From: Candidatus Aquidulcis sp.
Lineage (GTDB): Bacteria > Chloroflexota > Anaerolineae > UBA4142
DNA: 44,049 nt
Assembly (NCBI GenBank): GCA_020723345.1
Contig: DYJA01000055.1
Location: forward strand, 1 to 44,049
Direction: 5' to 3'
Below are positions 31,464 to 41,290 of this stretch, piece by piece (positions within the stretch are counted from its first letter, which is position 1; every line of letters starts with the position of its first letter). The notes below the pieces were generated by a model that had not been told where the DNA came from, did no database searches, and worked only from the letters and a program-made list of their open reading frames with translations. Both the position numbers and the translations under genes were made by a program.

Positions 31464-32903
31464 CTATTTTACCGTCAGCGTCGTCGGCGCGAGCGTGGAC
31501 GTGACACCCGGATTGTAGTAATCGTACGTCGTCGAACTGGGCGTCTGCGCGCGCAGCGGGAATTTCGCTTTGAGCCGATAGTTGAACGTGATCGGTTTTT
31601 GCGAACTGAACTCTTCGAGATAAATGATGATCTGGCGTCCGGTCAGTTCATAGCGCGCGATGGTCTTGGCGCGCACCGCGGCTTCCAGGTCTTCGCTTTG
31701 CACGGTAAAGCCGGGCGGAATGCCGAGATCGACGATCGTCATGCGCGCGGTCCCGGCTTTGGTCAAGCGCACCGTCGCGGTCACGCCGACGAGATCGTTC
31801 ACCGCGAGCGTCGTGCGGTCGTACCGCACTTGCACGTCGACGAGTTTGTCCGCTTCCGGCGTCACGGGCACTGCTGACCAGGGCAAATAGTAATTCGACG
31901 AAACCTGGTACGCCAGCGCGCCCTTGCCTTCGACTTTGAACGCGATCCGATTCGTCCCCGGATTGATGTCATCGAACGAAACGATTTGGACGACGCCCGC
32001 GTTCTCCTTGGTGATGACGATCGGTTTCGCTTCCGCGCCGTTCGCGGAAACGCGCACCGTCGCATCGCCCGTGACTTCGCCCGCGTCGATCACCGATTGG
32101 ATGAGCGCGCGCAAAGCGAGAATCGTCGCCTGGGTCGAGCCCCAGGTGCCGCGCGGATCTTTTTTCTGGACGAGGTACGTCAGCGCGCGCTGCGCGGCTT
32201 CGGGGTACTGCTTGGCGCGGATGAACGCGTACGCCGCCAGCCCGGTCGTTTCGATGTTGCCGTACACGCCGGACGCGCCGGTGAACGAGCCGATCCGCGT
32301 CGGGTAGTACGCGCCGTCGCCCTCCGCGACCTGGATTTGATTGAGCCGCGCGAGCACGTCGCGCGCCATCGCGTCGTTCGGATCGTACGCGACGAGCGCG
32401 TTCGCGACCATCGCCAGCGTGTAGCCGTCGGTGGCGCGGGACGCGTTCTCTTTGATGTACGCAATCGCGCGACTGACGCGCGCGTCGTCTTTCAACCCGC
32501 TTTCGAGAATCGACCACGTGACGTACGCGGTCAGCGGCAGCGGATCATTCGCGCTGCCCGGCGGCGCGTCCCACGACGACGCGCCGGTCGTCCACGTCCC
32601 ATCCGATTTCTGTTGCGCGAGCATCCAGTTGCGCGTTCGTTGAATCAGCGCGGGATCGACCGGGTACACTTTTGCCATATCGCTAAATTCGAGCAGACCT
32701 TTCGCGCTGAGCATCACACTCGCGGGCGCGCGCCCGTACAGCGAGAACCCGCCGCCTTGCACTTCGAACGTGAGCAAGCGTTGATAACCGAGCGCGATGT
32801 AGTTCTCCGCCTTCAATTGGATTTCGGGCGATGCTTGCTTGGTTTGCTTCAAGTAGTTGAGCACGAGAACATTGGGAAACGTCACCGACGTCGTCTGCTC
32901 AAA
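31464..32903 (-). CDS. Alpha-2-macroglobulin, C-terminal part (thioester domain onward), downstream of an in-frame TGA
   Basis: 479 residues in the same frame as the part at 32904-36413, separated only by one TGA. It opens with F-E-Q-T-T-S-V-T-F-P-N-V, the continuation of the thioester motif, then the helical thioester domain (helical hairpins, G-Y-Q-R-L-L-T-F and later S-A-W-like repeats) and a C-terminal beta domain. If the TGA is decoded, this is residues 1171-1649 of one protein. If it stops translation, restart at GTG 32885 would give a fragment with no export signal; no ribosome site is seen there, so an independent gene is unlikely. No frameshift or other stop occurs. Confidence 0.8.
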   Translation of the reverse strand, partial: FEQTTSVTFPNVLVLNYLKQTKQASPEIQLKAENYIALGYQRLLTFEVQGGGFSLYGRAPASVMLSAKGLLEFSDMAKVYPVDPALIQRTRNWMLAQQKSDGTWTTGASSWDAPPGSANDPLPLTAYVTWSILESGLKDDARVSRAIAYIKENASRATDGYTLAMVANALVAYDPNDAMARDVLARLNQIQVAEGDGAYYPTRIGSFTGASGVYGNIETTGLAAYAFIRAKQYPEAAQRALTYLVQKKDPRGTWGSTQATILALRALIQSVIDAGEVTGDATVRVSANGAEAKPIVITKENAGVVQIVSFDDINPGTNRIAFKVEGKGALAYQVSSNYYLPWSAVPVTPEADKLVDVQVRYDRTTLAVNDLVGVTATVRLTKAGTARMTIVDLGIPPGFTVQSEDLEAAVRAKTIARYELTGRQIIIYLEEFSSQKPITFNYRLKAKFPLRAQTPSSTTYDYYNPGVTSTLAPTTLTVK

Positions 32904-32906
32904 TCA
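32879..32906 (-). promoter_or_regulatory. In-frame TGA at the thioester Cys, with a SECIS-like hairpin
   Basis: The TGA (32906-32904) reads G-TGA-F-E-Q, exactly the cysteine of G-C-x-E-Q. After 17 nt comes a hairpin ACGTC-GGT-GACGT, extendable by a G-U pair and, past a bulged C, an A-U and G-C pair. Bacterial SECIS elements are known to place a loop with an early G roughly 16-37 nt after UGA. The 3-nt loop is small, the bulge is not the U seen in fdhF, and a 5-bp stem can arise by chance. Confidence 0.4.
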
Positions 32907-35900
32907 GCCAAAGGGCATCCGTAACAAACCGTCGAGACCATTGACGACCTGACTCACGATCCCCGGATAAATCATCACTTGGATGCGCGACGCTCCGGCA
33001 ATCGCCTGCACCGGAATTTCGACGACTTGCTGCGTATCGCTCTTGAGCCAATTGCTCACCGTCTTTTCGAACGGCTTGCCGTCGGGATAGACGCGGATTT
33101 CGCGCTGGATCGCGTCCGACATTTTTTCGCCGAGCGCGGTCACCTTCAATTTTTGCGCGCCAAAGTTCAGCGCCTTGATGCGAAAGTACACCACGTCAAT
33201 ATCGTTCGACGCGATCGTCAGTGTTTTCTCCGCGTCGTCTTGAAGTTGGAACCACGATTGCTTTTCGATTTGCAGTCGCACTTTTTGCGCGGTCGTGAGA
33301 TAGTTGTACACCGCGACCGGAATCGAAATTTCGTCGTTCTGCGTCAGCGCGACCGGCAGATCGAGATCGACGAAGAAATCTTGAAAGACGCGGATGCCTT
33401 TGTCGCTCGCGCCCAGTTCGCCGCGCTGCGACGACGCGGTGACCGCGAGCCGCCACGTCGTGATCGAATCGGCGAGCGGAATGTCGAGCGTCGCAGTGCC
33501 GTTTTCGTTCGTGATCACTTGCGGATTAAAGTACAGCGTCTCGGGGAAATATTGGCGCAAACGCGGTTGCTCGGCGGCTTCACCTGCCGCCTTGGGCGCT
33601 TCGCCCGGCTTAGGTGCAGCGGTTGGCGCAGCTGCAGCCATCGGTTGTGCCATTTCTTTCGCCGCGCCCATTCCGCTCTGCAAATCGCGAAAGAGGTTGC
33701 CGGAACTCGGTTGACCCGGCGCGGGGGTTGCCGCAGGCGCGCAACCGGTAAGCCAACTCGGCGGAATGTACAATGCGGGATGTCCCATCGTTCGCAAGAA
33801 CGGTCCTGCGGTCGGCATCATCGCGAGCAGAATCGTCGCGGGAATGAAAATCAAAACGAGGAGGAGCGCGGCGAGCCCAGGTGCCGTTTCTTTTTGCACG
33901 AGCAAACCGATCCCGATCAGCACGACGGTCGCGAGCGCGCCCAGGTACGTCAGAATCACGCCGAACGCCACCCATTCGTTGATCGTGGATGCCTTGGGGA
34001 CGATGTACGCGAACATGCCGATGAAAACGAAATACGCGGCGAGCAAGATCAGCGCGGCTTGCAGCCACAAATCGCGTTTGATGATCGCGTGCGCGGCGAC
34101 GATGATGAACGCGGCGAACAGCGCGAGCGCGACGAGCGCGACGACGAGCACGCCGAGTTTCAGTTGGATGAAAATCATCCCGACGAACGCAATCGCGCCG
34201 ATGAAGAACGGCGACGCGATGCAGTACGCGAGCACGCCCGCCAGCCACAGCGCGAGCGATTTGCCGAGAATCTTTTTCGTCGCGAGACTGGCGACGGCAA
34301 AGCCCGCGAGGAAAAGCGGAACGAGCGAGAGAAAGAGCGCGAGCCACGCCGCGAGATTGTTGAATCCTTCGGCTTGCGCTTTGGTCGCGTTGGCGCGTTT
34401 TTCTTGCTGCGAGTTCGCGCGCAGGACGAAATCGAACGGCGTCGCGAGCGCCCACGCCGCGTTTGCCGATTGGGTTTGCGCGGCGCGAATATCGGCGGGC
34501 GGCGGCGCGGGCTGATACGTCACGACTTGAGGCAGCGTGAATCCTTTGACTTGATATTTCGGTTCGAGCAATTCTTTTTGCAGGAGGAAATACAGTTTCG
34601 CAAAACCTGGGTCTTGCTCCGCGAGCGCGAACACTGCCTCGTCCACGCCGGTCACGCCGAGCGCGCTCTGCACGCCTTTGCCTTGCGCGTTCGTGACGTT
34701 GAACGTGATTTTCGACGTGTCGCCGGGGCGATACACGTCGCGGTCCGGTAGAATCGCGATGTTCAAGTCGCTCGGCTGTTCGACGACGACGATGCGCGTA
34801 TCGCGTGTGATCGTCCCGTCGCGTTCGACGTGGTACGCGTGCAGTTGCAGCGTGCCGATCATCTCGGCGGTCACGTCCACGCTGATCGTCGCGCGTCCGC
34901 TCACCGCGTCTTCCGCGCGCGTCGAGAGCGTCTGCTTTTCCTTGATGATGTCGAGATAGACGGTGCCGGTGCTGTTGCTCGTGAGCGCGTCCAGTTTCAT
35001 CGTCTCGCCGACGCGGTACGCCGCGCGATCCGGTCGCAGCAAAATTTGATTCGCCGTCGTTTCGGATTGCAGCGTGATGCTGCGCGTCGCGCGGCGACCT
35101 TGCGCGTCTTGCGCCGTGATCGCCAGTATAGTGTTGCCGCGCTGGGGCGTGATCTTCGCTTCGGCGAGACCGTACTTGCCGGTGCGCGTTTGCTGTGACG
35201 CGCCCGCGACGGAAATCGTCAGACTCGTTTCGAGCGGCGAGCCGTCGGGCAGCGAAGTCAAAATGTAGACGATGTTCTCGACGCCCGCGACGAGGCGTCC
35301 GCTCTCCGGCACCGCGTCGATCATGATCGCGCCGTTCGCAATCGCGAGCGCGTGCGACGTTTGCTCGGTGTGATTCGCCTGATCGGTCACCGCGATTTCG
35401 AGACCGAAATCGGCGCGGTCTTTGTTCAAGCCGGTGCCGGCAAAATAATTCGGCAGCGTGAACGAGAACGAGTACACGCCCTCCGCGTCGGTTTTGCCGG
35501 TGAGATTGATCGTCTCCGCGCGCGCGACATCGTAGACGATGCCCTTGATCGTCACGTCGCTTTTGGCGACCGGCTTGCCGAAAAAGTAATCGGCGCGAAT
35601 TTTGCCGCTCACTTTTTCGCCGGGCAAATAATAACTGCGCTCGGTTTCCGCGGCGACTTTGAATTTCGGCAGGACGTACGGCTTGACGTTCACCGTCTTT
35701 TCCGATTTCGTATCGCCGATGCTCGCGGTGATTTTGTAATTGCCCGCGTTGAGCGTTTCCGCGAGTTGGAAATCCGCGCTGACGATCCCGTAATCGGACG
35801 ATTTTACTGTTTTGCGGTAAATCTTGTTGCCTTTTGGATCTTCGATCAGAAATTCAATGTCCTGACCTTTTGCCGGCACGCGATCGATCGCGCCGAGCGC

Positions 35901-36413
35901 GAGCGCGCGCAAATGGATCAGTTGTCCGGGTTGGTACAGCGGCTTGTCGGTCGTGACGAGCACTTTGTAACTGCGCGCGACGGTGATCGCGCGTTCGACG
36001 CGATCGTGTCCCGCGCCGGAGTCGGTTTGAATAATGAGCGTTTGATCGCGCGCGGTGTTGGGCGGCAAGACGAACGACACCGGCGCGGTGCCGCGCGCGT
36101 CGGTCTTGCCGGTGTAGAGCGGTTGCGACGCACCGCCGCCTTTCGGGACCATTTGCACGGTGACGTTCGCGTTCGCAATCGGCTGGTTCGTTTCATTGTC
36201 GCGTACCACGACGCGCAGCGCGCTTGGATTCTCCGGCGCGAACTGCGTCGGACCCAGCACGACGGTTTGCTGATGATCGAGCGCGAACTTGGGGAGATTG
36301 AAAACGTAGTACGTCGCCGCGAGGAATCCGGCGACGAGGAGGCACACCAGCGCGAGGGTGACCGCGATGCGGTGCTGCCACAGCGCGCCGACGACTGAAC
36401 GGACGGTGTTCAT
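32904..36413 (-). CDS. Alpha-2-macroglobulin family protein, N-terminal part up to an in-frame TGA
   Basis: 1,169 residues before TGA. An N-terminal membrane anchor (about 14-40) is followed by macroglobulin beta domains (T-D-K-P-L-Y-Q-P-G-Q near 175 is characteristic). Uniquely, a block of about seven membrane helices (about 684-875) interrupts the middle, then a Pro/Ala linker and further beta domains with E-N-G-T-A and S-I-T-T-W. It ends G-L-D-G-L-L-R-M-P-F-G just before the thioester position. Bacterial A2Ms trap proteases by covalent thioester attack and guard the periplasm or cell surface. ATG 36413 has AAGGAG close upstream. With the TGA read through, the protein is 1,649 residues, a normal A2M length, which argues that the two parts are one gene. 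Confidence 0.9.
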   Translation of the reverse strand: MNTVRSVVGALWQHRIAVTLALVCLLVAGFLAATYYVFNLPKFALDHQQTVVLGPTQFAPENPSALRVVVRDNETNQPIANANVTVQMVPKGGGASQPLYTGKTDARGTAPVSFVLPPNTARDQTLIIQTDSGAGHDRVERAITVARSYKVLVTTDKPLYQPGQLIHLRALALGAIDRVPAKGQDIEFLIEDPKGNKIYRKTVKSSDYGIVSADFQLAETLNAGNYKITASIGDTKSEKTVNVKPYVLPKFKVAAETERSYYLPGEKVSGKIRADYFFGKPVAKSDVTIKGIVYDVARAETINLTGKTDAEGVYSFSFTLPNYFAGTGLNKDRADFGLEIAVTDQANHTEQTSHALAIANGAIMIDAVPESGRLVAGVENIVYILTSLPDGSPLETSLTISVAGASQQTRTGKYGLAEAKITPQRGNTILAITAQDAQGRRATRSITLQSETTANQILLRPDRAAYRVGETMKLDALTSNSTGTVYLDIIKEKQTLSTRAEDAVSGRATISVDVTAEMIGTLQLHAYHVERDGTITRDTRIVVVEQPSDLNIAILPDRDVYRPGDTSKITFNVTNAQGKGVQSALGVTGVDEAVFALAEQDPGFAKLYFLLQKELLEPKYQVKGFTLPQVVTYQPAPPPADIRAAQTQSANAAWALATPFDFVLRANSQQEKRANATKAQAEGFNNLAAWLALFLSLVPLFLAGFAVASLATKKILGKSLALWLAGVLAYCIASPFFIGAIAFVGMIFIQLKLGVLVVALVALALFAAFIIVAAHAIIKRDLWLQAALILLAAYFVFIGMFAYIVPKASTINEWVAFGVILTYLGALATVVLIGIGLLVQKETAPGLAALLLVLIFIPATILLAMMPTAGPFLRTMGHPALYIPPSWLTGCAPAATPAPGQPSSGNLFRDLQSGMGAAKEMAQPMAAAAPTAAPKPGEAPKAAGEAAEQPRLRQYFPETLYFNPQVITNENGTATLDIPLADSITTWRLAVTASSQRGELGASDKGIRVFQDFFVDLDLPVALTQNDEISIPVAVYNYLTTAQKVRLQIEKQSWFQLQDDAEKTLTIASNDIDVVYFRIKALNFGAQKLKVTALGEKMSDAIQREIRVYPDGKPFEKTVSNWLKSDTQQVVEIPVQAIAGASRIQVMIYPGIVSQVVNGLDGLLRMPFG

Positions 36414-36428
36414 GGGGATCTCCTTGTT

Positions 36429-36656: not shown

Positions 36657-39026
36657 TCAGTTGTCCCACTCTTTCGTTTGCGATTCGTTCGCGCGCCACT
36701 GTGCCCGCGTCTGCTCCACCCACGCGAATTTTTTCTGTAACGCTTTGGTGTACAACCGCTTCCAATCATAGCCCGCGTAATCGCCCCACGATTTATAGAC
36801 GCGCGGGTCGATGTAATTCTTCAGCGACGTTCCCAAATTGTAATCGCGCGTCCGCTTTGCCAAATCCAATTGCAGCGCCGCGCGCTCGACGCGTTCGGCG
36901 TAATTCTGCTGCGCGATCTCCGGCGCGCGGCGCGCTTGTTCGAGCGCGGCTTCCACTTTTGCCAGACGTTCTTCGTAGCGTTTCGGCGCGTGGGCAAGCG
37001 CGTCTTGCGCGCGTTTGAGCGCGGCTTGCGCTTGCGCGATATTTTTCGCGGCATTTCGCGTTTTTTCGCGCTTTTGCTTCGTCGCCGCGTCCAACGCTTT
37101 GCGCGCGGAAGCGATGCGCGCTTTGAGTCGTTTGAGTTTCGCGTCGTTCCCCTTTTGGGTTTCCGCGAACGCTTTGCGCGCCACGCGCAGGCGTTTGTTG
37201 AACGCCGCCAACGCCTTTTTCGCTTTGGGCGGTTTTTGCTTTTCGAGTTTGGCGAGCGCGTCCTGTTTTTTCTTCAACGCGGTTTGCGCGGCGGCTTCGA
37301 GCGGTTTCTGCGCGGCAAGCGCGTGATCGAGTGTGGCTTGGCGCGTCTGGATCGTCTCATCGAGTTTCGGCAGATCGGTTTGCGCGGCGCGCGCGCGTTC
37401 CAGCGCGTCCTCGCGCGCCTTGAGTTGCGCGGCGAGTTTTTGCGGATCCGGTGGCGCGGCGCGCAGTTTCTCCAGCGCTTTTTCGCGCGGCGCGATTTGC
37501 GCTTGGAGTTTAGTCACGTCCGGCGGCGCGGCGCGCAGTCGCTGCACTTGTACTTCGCGCTTTGCCAGATTTTCCTCCCAGTTTTTCGGCGGCGTGCGTT
37601 TGTGATTGCAGACGATTGCCGCGTCGAGGTTCGCGAGTTTCGCGACGTACTCTTTCTGATAATTCGGCGCGTCGCTCGCGACGTTGCCATCGCGTTCGAG
37701 GTACGACCGGACCGCGTGCGTCGCGTGGTACGTGCGGAAGACTTTCGCAGTCAAGCCGGGCACGATACTGCTCAAGAATTTGTTGACGTGCGTTGAATCG
37801 ATCTTGTCGAAAATCTGATCGCCGGTTTGTTTGCCGTGCGTGAGGTCTTGCAAGTTGCGCGCGAGAATCAGTTCGTCGTGATTGAGCGGCAACGATTTCT
37901 GCCACGCGACGCTATCTTTGCCGAGAAAATCGAATTCAATGTTGTCGCGCCCGATTCGCACGTGTTCGACGCGCAGCGTGGACGCGCCGACGGTATCCGC
38001 TTCGTCCTCGTCCTTTTCGTCGCCGACGCGCATCGCGAGCCGGTCGATCAAATAGCACACCGTCGCGAGTTGGCGCGTCTTCATTTCGTCGGCGCGGATT
38101 TTTTCCTCGCGCGTGGCGAGCGTTTCGCTCTTTTTCTGGAGCGCAGCGAGTTGCTCTTCGACTTTTTTGCGTGTCTCCGCGTCGCCCACTTCGCTCGCCT
38201 GCAAAAGTTTTTCTTCGAGTGACTTTCTCTTTGCGTTCACGTCGGCGCGGTGTTTCTCCAGTTCCGCGCGCGCGCGCGCGTCTTCGTAACCCATCCGCTT
38301 GGCGATTTCGGCGCGCACTTTGTCGACGCTCGTTTGCAATTTCGCCGCTTTGAGATATTTTTCCTGATCGCGTTCTTGCCGCAGATGCGACGTTTCCGCG
38401 AGCCAAATGTATTTGCGCTTTTTGGCGAGATTGTCCCACCACGTCGCGATCCACATCGAATCGTGCTCGTGGACGATTTCTTTCCAATTGCCCGGCGGCA
38501 CGGGCGCGTCTTCGTCGAGATTGAGCGTCACGTCTTCCGGCTTGACGCGATCTTTCCACTTGCCGCGCAGCGGATGCTGCCCGCGCCCCATCAAAATTCC
38601 CGGTGGCTCGACCAGGTACGCGCCGATTTCGGTTTCCTTGCCGTCAATGAGCGCGGCACCGTATTTCGCTTTCAGTTCGTCGCGTTCTTTTTTGCGCGCC
38701 TCGGCGCGCGCTTTCTTTTCTTCCGGCGAAAGGTTCGCAGTCTTTTCGCGTTCGGCAATCACGTGCAGTTCGGCGAAATCAATGTTGGCGAGTGTGATGT
38801 CGGACAAGCGCGCGTCGAGTTTCGCGATGAAATCGTTCAAGAAGTTTTTCTGGAACACCGGATCGAGGACGTAGGGCGTGTCTTTTTTTCTTGCCCACGC
38901 CATCAACATTTCTTCCTGCTCCGGCGTCAGTTTGGTTTTTTCGTTTTTGATGCGGACGACGAGTCCGCGATAATCGTACGGCGGCGGGAACGCGACTCCA
39001 TTGTGCCGCAGGGTTTGCCACTTCAA
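36657..39026 (-). CDS. Eukaryote-type DNA topoisomerase IB
   Basis: 789 residues. The N-terminal DNA-binding core is of the eukaryotic type: W-Q-T-L-R-H-N-G-V near the start, G-R-G-Q-H-P-L-R-G-K, and P-P-G-N-W-K-E near 180. The catalytic core has R-V-G-D-E-K-D-E-D-E-A-D-T-V-G, the K-V-F-R-T-Y arginine, V-C-N-H-K-R-T-P-P with the active histidine, and the nucleophile in L-G-T-S-L-K-N-Y-I-D-P-R near the C-terminus. These match human TOP1 Arg488, Arg590, His632 and Tyr723 contexts. Between them is an unusually long Lys/Ala-rich coiled-coil linker (about 500-740). It relaxes supercoils by 3'-phosphotyrosine nicking. TTG 39026 is chosen because homology starts there and GAGGAG is 10 nt upstream; the frame runs to 39065 in repeat sequence. 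Confidence 0.9.
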   Translation of the reverse strand: MKWQTLRHNGVAFPPPYDYRGLVVRIKNEKTKLTPEQEEMLMAWARKKDTPYVLDPVFQKNFLNDFIAKLDARLSDITLANIDFAELHVIAEREKTANLSPEEKKARAEARKKERDELKAKYGAALIDGKETEIGAYLVEPPGILMGRGQHPLRGKWKDRVKPEDVTLNLDEDAPVPPGNWKEIVHEHDSMWIATWWDNLAKKRKYIWLAETSHLRQERDQEKYLKAAKLQTSVDKVRAEIAKRMGYEDARARAELEKHRADVNAKRKSLEEKLLQASEVGDAETRKKVEEQLAALQKKSETLATREEKIRADEMKTRQLATVCYLIDRLAMRVGDEKDEDEADTVGASTLRVEHVRIGRDNIEFDFLGKDSVAWQKSLPLNHDELILARNLQDLTHGKQTGDQIFDKIDSTHVNKFLSSIVPGLTAKVFRTYHATHAVRSYLERDGNVASDAPNYQKEYVAKLANLDAAIVCNHKRTPPKNWEENLAKREVQVQRLRAAPPDVTKLQAQIAPREKALEKLRAAPPDPQKLAAQLKAREDALERARAAQTDLPKLDETIQTRQATLDHALAAQKPLEAAAQTALKKKQDALAKLEKQKPPKAKKALAAFNKRLRVARKAFAETQKGNDAKLKRLKARIASARKALDAATKQKREKTRNAAKNIAQAQAALKRAQDALAHAPKRYEERLAKVEAALEQARRAPEIAQQNYAERVERAALQLDLAKRTRDYNLGTSLKNYIDPRVYKSWGDYAGYDWKRLYTKALQKKFAWVEQTRAQWRANESQTKEWDN

Positions 39027-39053
39027 AGGTTTCTTGCTCCTCAAGTCAATTAG

Positions 39054-39103
39054 GCAATCAGTCAATCAGGAACCAGTTGCCTGGTTGACCGATTGACTGA
39101 TTG
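39054..39103. repeat. Inverted repeat in the topoisomerase leader
   Basis: CAATCAGTCAATC and GATTGACTGATTG face each other around ACCAGTTGCCTGGT. It lies at the 5' end of the topoisomerase transcript predicted from the promoter at 39113. Confidence 0.65.
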
Positions 39104-39148: not shown

Positions 39149-41290
39149 TCAAATACTCGTCTCGACCAACTGTACGCATTGCTCGCGCAGAATCGTTTTC
39201 TGTTCGATGATCTGCCGTACTTGCTCCGCGACGCGTTCAATTTCTGCGCGATCATTGCTGATCGGCAGAACGATGTCGAGCAGACGATTGCCAATCGTTG
39301 ATAACGTTGCTTGCGTAAATGTTTTCACCGCGATTTGCCGTTGCGCGATGTTGGAGTTGAGCAGGTAGAACAAATAGAATGGGCTGAGTTGGTCGGGTTT
39401 CAAGACGCGGATTTTCTTCAAATGGCTTTGGATGATTATTCGGACGTCCAGGTGCGTCACCATTGCCGTTCTGCCAATCAGAAACGTGCCGTCGTTGACG
39501 AATAGAATATCATGCTCACGCACGTCCTGCAAATTTCGATATTGTTCGTACACCTCTTCTGCGACCGCCTTGACCGGATCCATCTTGATTTCCCAATTCA
39601 CAATATCAGTTGTTCGCACGAAGGGCACATCGCCCGTGCCGTAAAATTGTGAGCCGATTTCGTTGCCGCGTCGAATTTCGATGACACCAGCCCGTATCAA
39701 ATCGCCAATCGACATGAGCCGGTACTTGCCGCTTTGCTCAAGTTGCTTCAATTCCTCTCTGAGTTCTGGGTTGTAAAACTCGGGAATGAAGATGTGGTCG
39801 TCGATCTCCGTCTGGTCAACGACGAAACCGAGGTGATTGTTGACGATAGGCGTACCTGTGTTGGCGCGCGCAAAATTCCGCGCGATGTCCGGCGTGTCGT
39901 CGTCAATGATTTTGTTGCCGCTTGAATCCAAGACCGGCGCGCCGTCGGGCTTGATCTGAAAAATTTCTTTGCCGTTCTTGTTGTGTCCAATCGTTTTGGC
40001 AATCGCCATAAAGACGCGCCGGTTGGACGCCGGTAATTTCTGAAGGAACACGACGCTCGTTTTGGTATGCGTGCTCGGCTGAAAAGTTTCCGGCGGTAGA
40101 CTGACGATTGCCAAGACCGATGCGTTTTGGCGCACGTACTCCCAGATGTACCGATCCGATGGATTGCCAAAAACGCCTTCGGGCAGAACAATGCCCGCGC
40201 GCCCACCGGGTTTCAGCAATTGCAGGCAGCGCTCGATGAAGAGAACTTGCGGCGGCTGCTTGTCTAACAATTCGGTTGTCTTGAGCCAGACATCATTCTT
40301 TTCGATCCTTCGACTGCGCTCAGGACAAGTCCAGTGATGCCCCAGTTCGAATTGGCGTAACAGTTCTTTACCGATGACTGGAATTTTTGCGCCGAATGGC
40401 GGATTCGTCAGAATCAAATCGAACGAACCGAGCGGTGCGGCGCGTTGCGTTTCCAATCTCCACGCGCGTGGCTGTTCCAAACTGTTCTCACAAAAAAGAT
40501 GATAGTCGCTTTCGCCGATAAGCGAGAGATAAATTCTCGCCAAACGCGAAAGAAACGCGTCTTTGTCTATGCCAACAATCGTGTAATCGCTGGCGCGGGT
40601 GTGCGCCAAGTGCCGCGCGATGTACGCCAGAAAGCCGCCGCTGCCACACGCCGGATCAATAATGCGTTCGCCGCTCGTCGGATTGAGCATTTCGATCATC
40701 ATCTGCACAACATTGCGCGGCGTAAAAAACTGGCCCTCGCCGCCACGGAACGTCGTGCCGATGAGTTCCTCGAACGCGTCCGCAATGATGTCGCGGTCGG
40801 CATTCACTAGAGTATAGTCTTGAAGTTTCGAGACGACATACGCGAGATCTGCTCCATCAATCTCGATCACTTCGGCTGGATCGAAAATGTCGGTGCGTTT
40901 TTGTTTGACGCGGTGGAAGAGTTTTTGGATCCGCCGCGCCAGGTCGTTGGGACTTTCGTTGGGACGATTGGCGAATTCCACCAGTTCGTCGGCGCGGATT
41001 TCCTGTTCGTCTACAATTTTGCAGAATAGTAACCGCAGCATCGTTTGCGCGATGACTTCGTCGCGGGTGATGCCGGTGACGTTACCGGCAAAGTAATCGC
41101 GGAGATCGCGCAGAATGGCTTTGAGGTTGTGGAGGGGCTGAAGGTCACGTTTGTAGATTAGCGTGGCAGGAAAACCGAGTTGACGCACGCGGTATTCTCG
41201 CGTTCTTGACTCGGCAACTTTCTTCACTCGCGCCTTCGGACGCACCGGATATGTTTTTTTCTTGGGTCGAGAAATCTTTTTTACTGGCAT
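39149..41290 (-). CDS. N6-adenine DNA methylase fused to a specificity domain (Type I-like M-S)
   Basis: 713 residues. The HsdM-like part (about 60-470) has G-Q-F-F-T-P-R, the AdoMet loop D-P-A-C-G-S-G-G-F near 215 and the catalytic N-P-P-F-G near 295. The C-terminal 220 residues resemble a single target-recognition half of HsdS (F-V-R-T-T-D-I and Q-A-T-L-S-T-I-G segments). It should methylate adenine at a specific site and protect host DNA. ATG 41290 overlaps the nuclease stop by 10 nt. A repeat-derived peptide C-P-E-R-S-R-R-I-E is inserted in frame between N-P-P-F-G and the following strand (near 318-327). No nuclease domain of its own is seen, so it is not a IIG enzyme. Confidence 0.9.
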   Translation of the reverse strand: MPVKKISRPKKKTYPVRPKARVKKVAESRTREYRVRQLGFPATLIYKRDLQPLHNLKAILRDLRDYFAGNVTGITRDEVIAQTMLRLLFCKIVDEQEIRADELVEFANRPNESPNDLARRIQKLFHRVKQKRTDIFDPAEVIEIDGADLAYVVSKLQDYTLVNADRDIIADAFEELIGTTFRGGEGQFFTPRNVVQMMIEMLNPTSGERIIDPACGSGGFLAYIARHLAHTRASDYTIVGIDKDAFLSRLARIYLSLIGESDYHLFCENSLEQPRAWRLETQRAAPLGSFDLILTNPPFGAKIPVIGKELLRQFELGHHWTCPERSRRIEKNDVWLKTTELLDKQPPQVLFIERCLQLLKPGGRAGIVLPEGVFGNPSDRYIWEYVRQNASVLAIVSLPPETFQPSTHTKTSVVFLQKLPASNRRVFMAIAKTIGHNKNGKEIFQIKPDGAPVLDSSGNKIIDDDTPDIARNFARANTGTPIVNNHLGFVVDQTEIDDHIFIPEFYNPELREELKQLEQSGKYRLMSIGDLIRAGVIEIRRGNEIGSQFYGTGDVPFVRTTDIVNWEIKMDPVKAVAEEVYEQYRNLQDVREHDILFVNDGTFLIGRTAMVTHLDVRIIIQSHLKKIRVLKPDQLSPFYLFYLLNSNIAQRQIAVKTFTQATLSTIGNRLLDIVLPISNDRAEIERVAEQVRQIIEQKTILREQCVQLVETSI
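40304..40332. repeat. TCCTTCGACTGCGCTCAGGAC repeat inside the methylase gene
   Basis: A copy of the well-known TCCTTCGACTG...CTCAGGAC palindromic element, read as C-P-E-R-S-R-R-I-E in the methylase frame. Nested copies of its halves occur at 7780-7806 and 15479-15512. Confidence 0.75.

Follow-up and report, generated by a model that had tools for sequence, protein, structure and literature searches.

A predicted selenocysteine at the thioester position of an alpha-2-macroglobulin from uncultured Chloroflexota

Can a stop codon that falls exactly on the thioester cysteine of an alpha-2-macroglobulin (A2M) be read as selenocysteine (Sec), and, if it is, what would selenium do there? The gene raising this question, here termed Sec-A2M, lies in a stretch of 44,049 nucleotides of DNA which was analysed whole and is referred to as the window. 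Its frame contains a sole internal stop, TGA at codon 1170 (32906..32904, minus strand), which by translation reads M-P-F-G-[TGA]-F-E-Q-T-T-S. The principal features of the gene are as follows.

31464..36413 (-), Sec-A2M gene, 1,649 codons, from the ATG at 36413-36411 to the TAG at 31466-31464
36420..36425 (-), AAGGAG, likely ribosome-binding site, read from the sequence, 6 nt 5' of the ATG
36312..36368 (-), N-terminal membrane anchor, about residues 16-34, by hydropathy
35685..35963 (-), MG2 domain, residues 151-243 (Pfam PF01835, 100 bits)
34623..35039 (-), A2M_BRD domain, residues 459-597 (Pfam PF07703)
33270..33539 (-), A2M domain, residues 959-1048 (Pfam PF00207)
32103..32957 (-), TED (thioester/selenoester domain), residues 1153-1437 (Pfam PF07678, 153 bits; AlphaFold model, Foldseek)
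32904..32906 (-), Sec-UGA codon, residue 1170, thioester Cys position of G-[C/U]-F-E-Q
32895..32897 (-), codon for Gln1173, putative acyl partner of residue 1170
31506..31748 (-), C-terminal macroglobulin (receptor-binding) domain, residues 1556-1636 (Pfam PF07677)

The read-through protein scored over the Pfam cut-offs for MG2, MG3, A2M_BRD, A2M, TED_complement and A2M_recep, and the domain order of the A2M superfamily (MG, A2M, TED, C-terminal MG) is supported by Pfam, the structural model and Foldseek. Residue 1170 sits at the thioester Cys position within the TED; Glu and Gln of the C-x-E-Q motif are present and the Cys codon is UGA, the motif being complete only when Sec is counted as Cys. 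A preliminary description, made from the sequence alone, had reported a single TGA at the thioester Cys of an A2M, and both its coordinates and its codon number held on translation and Pfam analysis. The Sec form is not the only A2M of the cell: elsewhere in the genome lies a gene of 1,737 codons for another, distant A2M, with the motif G-C-V-E-Q (G000:C70:88500-95000, L124).

A lone in-frame stop in one genome is commonly a sequencing error, a nonsense mutation or the sign of a pseudogene. Homologues were collected from relatives and from 396 genomes belonging to this class, and extra loci were added by position. Codon 1170 is TGA, in an otherwise open frame, in 20 genomes, which fall into about nine groups of family rank within one Chloroflexota class, and TGC or TGT (C-F-E-Q) stands at this position in 28 close homologues; TAA or TAG was never found there among these 20 genomes and 28 homologues. 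The TGA copies extend to about 45% identity, and some of the genomes carrying them are public MAGs that were assembled independently from different sites and whose isolate names differ (DeepCast_250m, SulCav, groundwater and others), the titles of the named ones giving Chloroflexi, Anaerolinea or Anaerolineae. No TGA copy was found outside the class in a 400-genome sample of the rest of the phylum, which contained distant Cys-type A2Ms only, and a plasmid search likewise yielded only distant A2Ms.

Selection on the sequence beyond the UGA was estimated in eight genes of the same family. The dN/dS values after the codon were 0.13-0.28 and generally no higher than upstream, from which it follows that the downstream part is very probably translated and useful. 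Sequencing error, random nonsense mutation and decay were rejected on this result and on conservation of the TGA in 20 genomes. A pseudogene or an error is all but excluded, since the TGA is kept in genomes from unrelated assemblies, the frame holds no other stop and the region 3' of the TGA is under purifying selection. The preliminary description had proposed aligning homologues for Cys versus TGA, which came out in its favour (20 TGA against 28 TGC/TGT), and had said that it would be refuted by a TGA confined to this strain in a decaying gene, which was not what we observed.

The distribution of the two states was examined on a tree of 20 Sec and 33 Cys sequences from which the UGA codon and the SECIS-coding codons had been left out. 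Only four changes of Sec/Cys state occur on this 53-sequence tree, and two Cys clades (f2 and f11) are nested among the Sec copies. This nesting suggests reversion from Sec to Cys, although many inner branches are weakly supported. Following the motif, the Sec copies have [T/S]-T-S-x-T and the Cys copies mostly T-S-S.

Just 3' of the UGA we located a SECIS-type hairpin, a feature absent from the preliminary description, in all of the TGA copies and in no Cys copy.

32877..32893 (-), bSECIS apical hairpin, core ACGUC-GGU-GACGU at 32891..32879, loop starting with G
32867..32900 (-), possible lower SECIS stem, GAGCA (32900..32896) with UGUUC (32871..32867), weak

The pattern ACGUC-GNN-GACGU, starting 12 nt 3' of the UGA, is found in all 20 TGA genes and in none of the Cys genes; ACGTCGNNGACGT lies no more than 40 nt from the codon in 20/20 TGA genes and in 0/28 Cys genes. 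When the genes were recoded synonymously with the protein preserved, the hairpin motif arose in 0.035% of trials. The hairpin possesses a stem of 5-7 bp and a 3-nt loop, with G first in all loops, 17 nt from the UGA to the loop, and an MFE that ranges with the stretch folded from -8.3 to -19.1 kcal/mol. It falls within the published bSECIS limits, namely a loop of 3-9 nt, a stem of 4-16 bp, G in the first two loop positions, a spacing of 16-37 nt and an MFE of at most -7.5 (PMC13188914). The z-score was not significant for single folded stretches of 43-45 nt; the case for the hairpin rests on sequence comparison rather than on thermodynamics.

Across 400 codons of the C-terminal half, the Sec set shows the same amino acid throughout in 78 columns. 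Only four of these columns also keep one and the same codon in all TGA genes, at +5 (ACG), +6 (TCG), +8 (ACG) and +11 (AAT) from the UGA; the Cys set has zero amino-acid-invariant columns with an invariant codon. The sixth stem pair varies in step (U-A, G-U or A-U), five of the seven apical pairs are invariant, and the aligned hairpin exceeds both shuffles and slid controls. The lower stem remains merely possible: 87% of cells are paired over 19 distinct sequences, one pair is broken in 11 of the 19, and no covariation was detected in this stem over the same set.

The genome carrying the gene contains tRNA-Sec (76 bits, anticodon UCA), selA (594 bits), selB (361 bits) and selD (357 bits), that is, all four of the components for which the preliminary description had proposed a search. 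Its selD has an in-frame TGA of its own (L047:1531-1533) with a similar hairpin (5 bp, GCA loop) and is likely itself a selenoprotein. Among the Sec-A2M genomes, tRNA-Sec was detected in 17/20, selA in 18/20 and at least one marker in 20/20, and 9/27 Cys-A2M genomes were without both tRNA-Sec and selA, including all eight that were searched of family f50. The co-occurrence of Sec-A2M with the machinery (Fisher p 0.006) ignores relatedness and is supportive only. The three Sec genomes of the 20 in which tRNA-Sec was not found (G031, G189, G331) contain selA and have fragmented or incomplete assemblies; selA was not found in two of the 20 (G006, G013). A count of 20/20 for tRNA-Sec by the Rfam cut-off alone was discarded in favour of 17/20, as ARAGORN identified the matches in those same three genomes as tRNA-Ser. 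Indeed, the Rfam tRNA-Sec model gives some tRNA-Ser of this class approximately 50 bits, above the gathering cut-off (L126, L128, L129, L131), and counts of Sec use that rest on this model alone would be too high.

Reassignment of the genetic code was rejected, TGA being the normal stop of many window genes, polA included; the preliminary description had thought reassignment unlikely on the strength of polA, and this held. A related explanation is that a suppressor tRNA decodes the UGA as Cys or some other amino acid without a SECIS. In its favour, homologues have Cys at the codon-1170 position. Against it stand the same ordinary use of TGA as a stop and the tRNA complement, in which the sole UCA-anticodon member of seven tRNA-Sec-family matches is a full tRNA-Sec, the rest being Ser, Leu and Lys; the codon-invariant hairpin would, moreover, be needless. 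We regard suppression as very unlikely.

Sec is thus, in our judgement, almost certainly inserted at residue 1170, although this is inferred and rests on no protein, 75Se or mass-spectrometry data. In the proposed sequence of events, tRNA-Sec(UCA) would be charged by SelA/SelD, SelB docked on the hairpin just 3' of the UGA would bring the Sec-tRNA to decode codon 1170 as Sec, and synthesis would continue past the UGA through the TED to the C-terminal MG domain. The gene had been put forward as a candidate selenoester A2M: the Sec insertion which this implies is strongly supported, and the selenoester is its natural reading and inferred only. Those of the checks proposed beforehand that could be computed were all favourable and, read-level evidence aside, nothing named as refuting the idea was found.

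It could be argued that the UGA is a selenium-responsive switch, with the 1,169-residue form as the main product and the full-length protein made only when selenium is plentiful. Recoding of UGA competes with release in known systems, and this lends the idea some support. Against it, dN/dS downstream of the UGA is generally no higher than upstream, and the UGA coincides exactly with the reactive residue, whereas a switch could have lain in a linker. As a replacement for the main explanation, Sec insertion for a full-length A2M, we find the switch very unlikely; it may possibly hold alongside.

In A2M chemistry, an ester forms between the corresponding Cys and Gln and stays shielded until cleavage elsewhere frees the TED (PMC4498604). 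By alignment, Gln1173 is kept in every Sec and Cys copy of the C-F-E-Q/U-F-E-Q clade, no substitution of Glu1172 or Gln1173 occurs among 33 Sec and Cys sequences, and U-F-E-Q is present in all 20 Sec copies. Since the Gln at +3 is invariant, a selenoester is the natural reading of Sec1170, and we infer that Sec1170 and Gln1173 likely form one intramolecularly. In the folded protein the two residues of U-F-E-Q would condense with loss of ammonia to give an internal selenoester, which would be hidden against the C-terminal domain. An attacking protease would cleave an exposed linker, the TED would swing out, and the freed selenoester would acylate a nucleophile of the attacker, which would then be held at the cell surface. 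That protease trapping is the function is likewise inferred, and we lean towards it by a modest margin.

As acyl donors, selenoesters surpass thioesters in electrophilicity (PMC9314092). The selenoester inferred here would be a quicker covalent trap than a thioester, in line with the preliminary suggestion of a more reactive trap. Free aryl selenoesters are hydrolysed quickly above pH 7 (PMC9314092), so an internal selenoester would need strong shielding. The AlphaFold model of residues 905-1649 (mean pLDDT 84.5) gave TM scores of 0.72-0.79 in Foldseek against native closed CD109, A2ML1 and C3, versus about 0.33 against opened C3b; the fold predicted by the model is that of an A2M in a native-like state.

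The main rival for the role of the residue is redox chemistry, in which Sec would serve in reversible selenenylation, peroxide sensing or protection from oxidation rather than in a selenoester. Most known selenoproteins are redox proteins or have redox motifs (PMC13188914), and oxidants would reach a surface protein. Against this, Glu1172 and the acyl partner Gln1173 are invariant in every Sec copy and a redox Sec needs no Gln; a search beside the Sec for a resolving Cys or a UxxC/CxxU motif found neither, the motif being G-U-F-E-Q; and the thioester motif persists in its classical form in the Cys counterparts, of which two clades branch from among the Sec copies, suggesting the same job. A redox role is accordingly considered unlikely. 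The preferred account, a membrane-anchored surface A2M whose reactive residue is Sec, is likely as a whole. On a bolder reading, which we favour moderately, the cell-surface protein stores a Sec1170-Gln1173 selenoester and traps its targets covalently with it, so that selenium serves acyl transfer instead of redox; a membrane domain of six helices would stand in for the bait region or flank it.

33819..34343 (-), six-helix transmembrane insert, about residues 691-865, at the bait-region position, with low-complexity linkers on both sides

This insert consists of six hydrophobic helices between the BRD and A2M domains, where other A2Ms have their bait region. Within the clade it occurs in both Sec and Cys members, whereas the UBP4 homologue and the outgroups lack it. 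Its sequence is poorly conserved and the model predicts a helical bundle; a fold search that included the insert matched the neighbouring MG domains and found no solved structure for the membrane part. Because the number of helices is even, the TED stays outside. Disordered Ala/Pro-rich linkers flank the insert and the BRD domain is present; no bait sequence was identified, and these linkers are possible bait candidates. In several members a lipobox-like L-x-G-C occurs soon after the last helix (LVGC in L070 and L023) and is missing in others; the A2M described here reads W-L-T-G-C-A-P after that helix. Conceivably, L-x-G-C is an internal lipoprotein-processing site which splits the protein.

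The gene neighbourhood revealed no widely conserved neighbour that points to a function, and one congener has the same two downstream genes. A eukaryote-type DNA topoisomerase IB with Pfam N-terminal, catalytic and C-terminal domains is encoded at 36657-39065 (-). It was found in most of the searched family members and in part of the class, and was therefore apparently inherited and is not a contaminant. Adjoining it, at 39149-41290 (-), is a gene for a fused N6-adenine methylase and type I specificity domain.

To our knowledge, no use of selenium for covalent trapping rather than redox chemistry has been described before, and this would be the first. The 2026 inventory of 119 prokaryotic selenoprotein families/subfamilies lists no macroglobulin (PMC13188914, Table 1), no NCBIfam family scored over its cut-off for Sec-A2M, and a literature search on selenocysteine or selenoproteins with macroglobulin or complement thioester gave nothing relevant, preprints and most subscription papers being outside its reach. 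The preliminary statement that no A2M of this kind had been described thus held in the literature, inventory and NCBIfam searched, and an earlier listing of Sec-A2M cannot be excluded. If the interpretation is correct, this is a new selenoprotein family in uncultured Chloroflexota, large and probably extracellular, with Sec at a site known for an ester and not for redox. Since automatic annotation likely splits such genes at the UGA, more of them may be hidden. With Cys copies nested among Sec copies, the clade offers a natural Sec/Cys comparison, and its Sec-A2Ms are sequences with which in-protein storage of a selenoester in water could be tested. They also raise the question of why a cell would pay selenium for a covalent trap: does it gain a faster reaction, a trap that works at lower pH, or one that recovers after oxidation?

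Sec-A2M shares with animal A2M, A2ML1, CD109, complement C3 and insect TEP the MG2-MG3, A2M, TED and C-terminal MG domains and the [C/U]-x-E-Q motif. Its best phmmer matches were to CD109 (1.9e-71), followed by A2ML1 and A2M, and its model fits the native state of these thioester proteins. Unlike them, it is bacterial, has Sec for Cys, carries the six-helix insert at the bait position and shows no evidence of a tetramer. It resembles the bacterial type I A2Ms (E. coli YfhM/ECAM, Salmonella SaA2M), which are presumed protease traps (PMC4498604, PMC5764988), in being bacterial and membrane-anchored with a CxEQ-type TED, but the sequence match amounts to only 35 bits and they have Cys in place of Sec. 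For Sec-A2M we saw neither the lipoprotein nature of YfhM nor the pbpC gene that is often the neighbour of type I genes. The C-x-E-Q motif is not universal in A2Ms, as the type II bacterial A2Ms are without it (PMC5764988).

With FdhA, SelD and other bSECIS selenoproteins, Sec-A2M has in common a UGA with a hairpin of the published kind 3' of it, the SelA/SelB/SelD/tRNA-Sec machinery and exchange with Cys; the expected chemistry differs, being acyl transfer and not redox. Its fold makes it an A2M and its coding a selenoprotein, and its predicted chemistry was not found described for either in the literature searched. A further parallel is SELENOK-DHHC6, for which Sec is proposed to work via an acyl intermediate, a suggested transient selenoester (PMC5789314). 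There the bond, which is only a suggestion, would be transient and formed with a fatty acid, whereas in Sec-A2M it would be a stored internal bond to the side chain of Gln.
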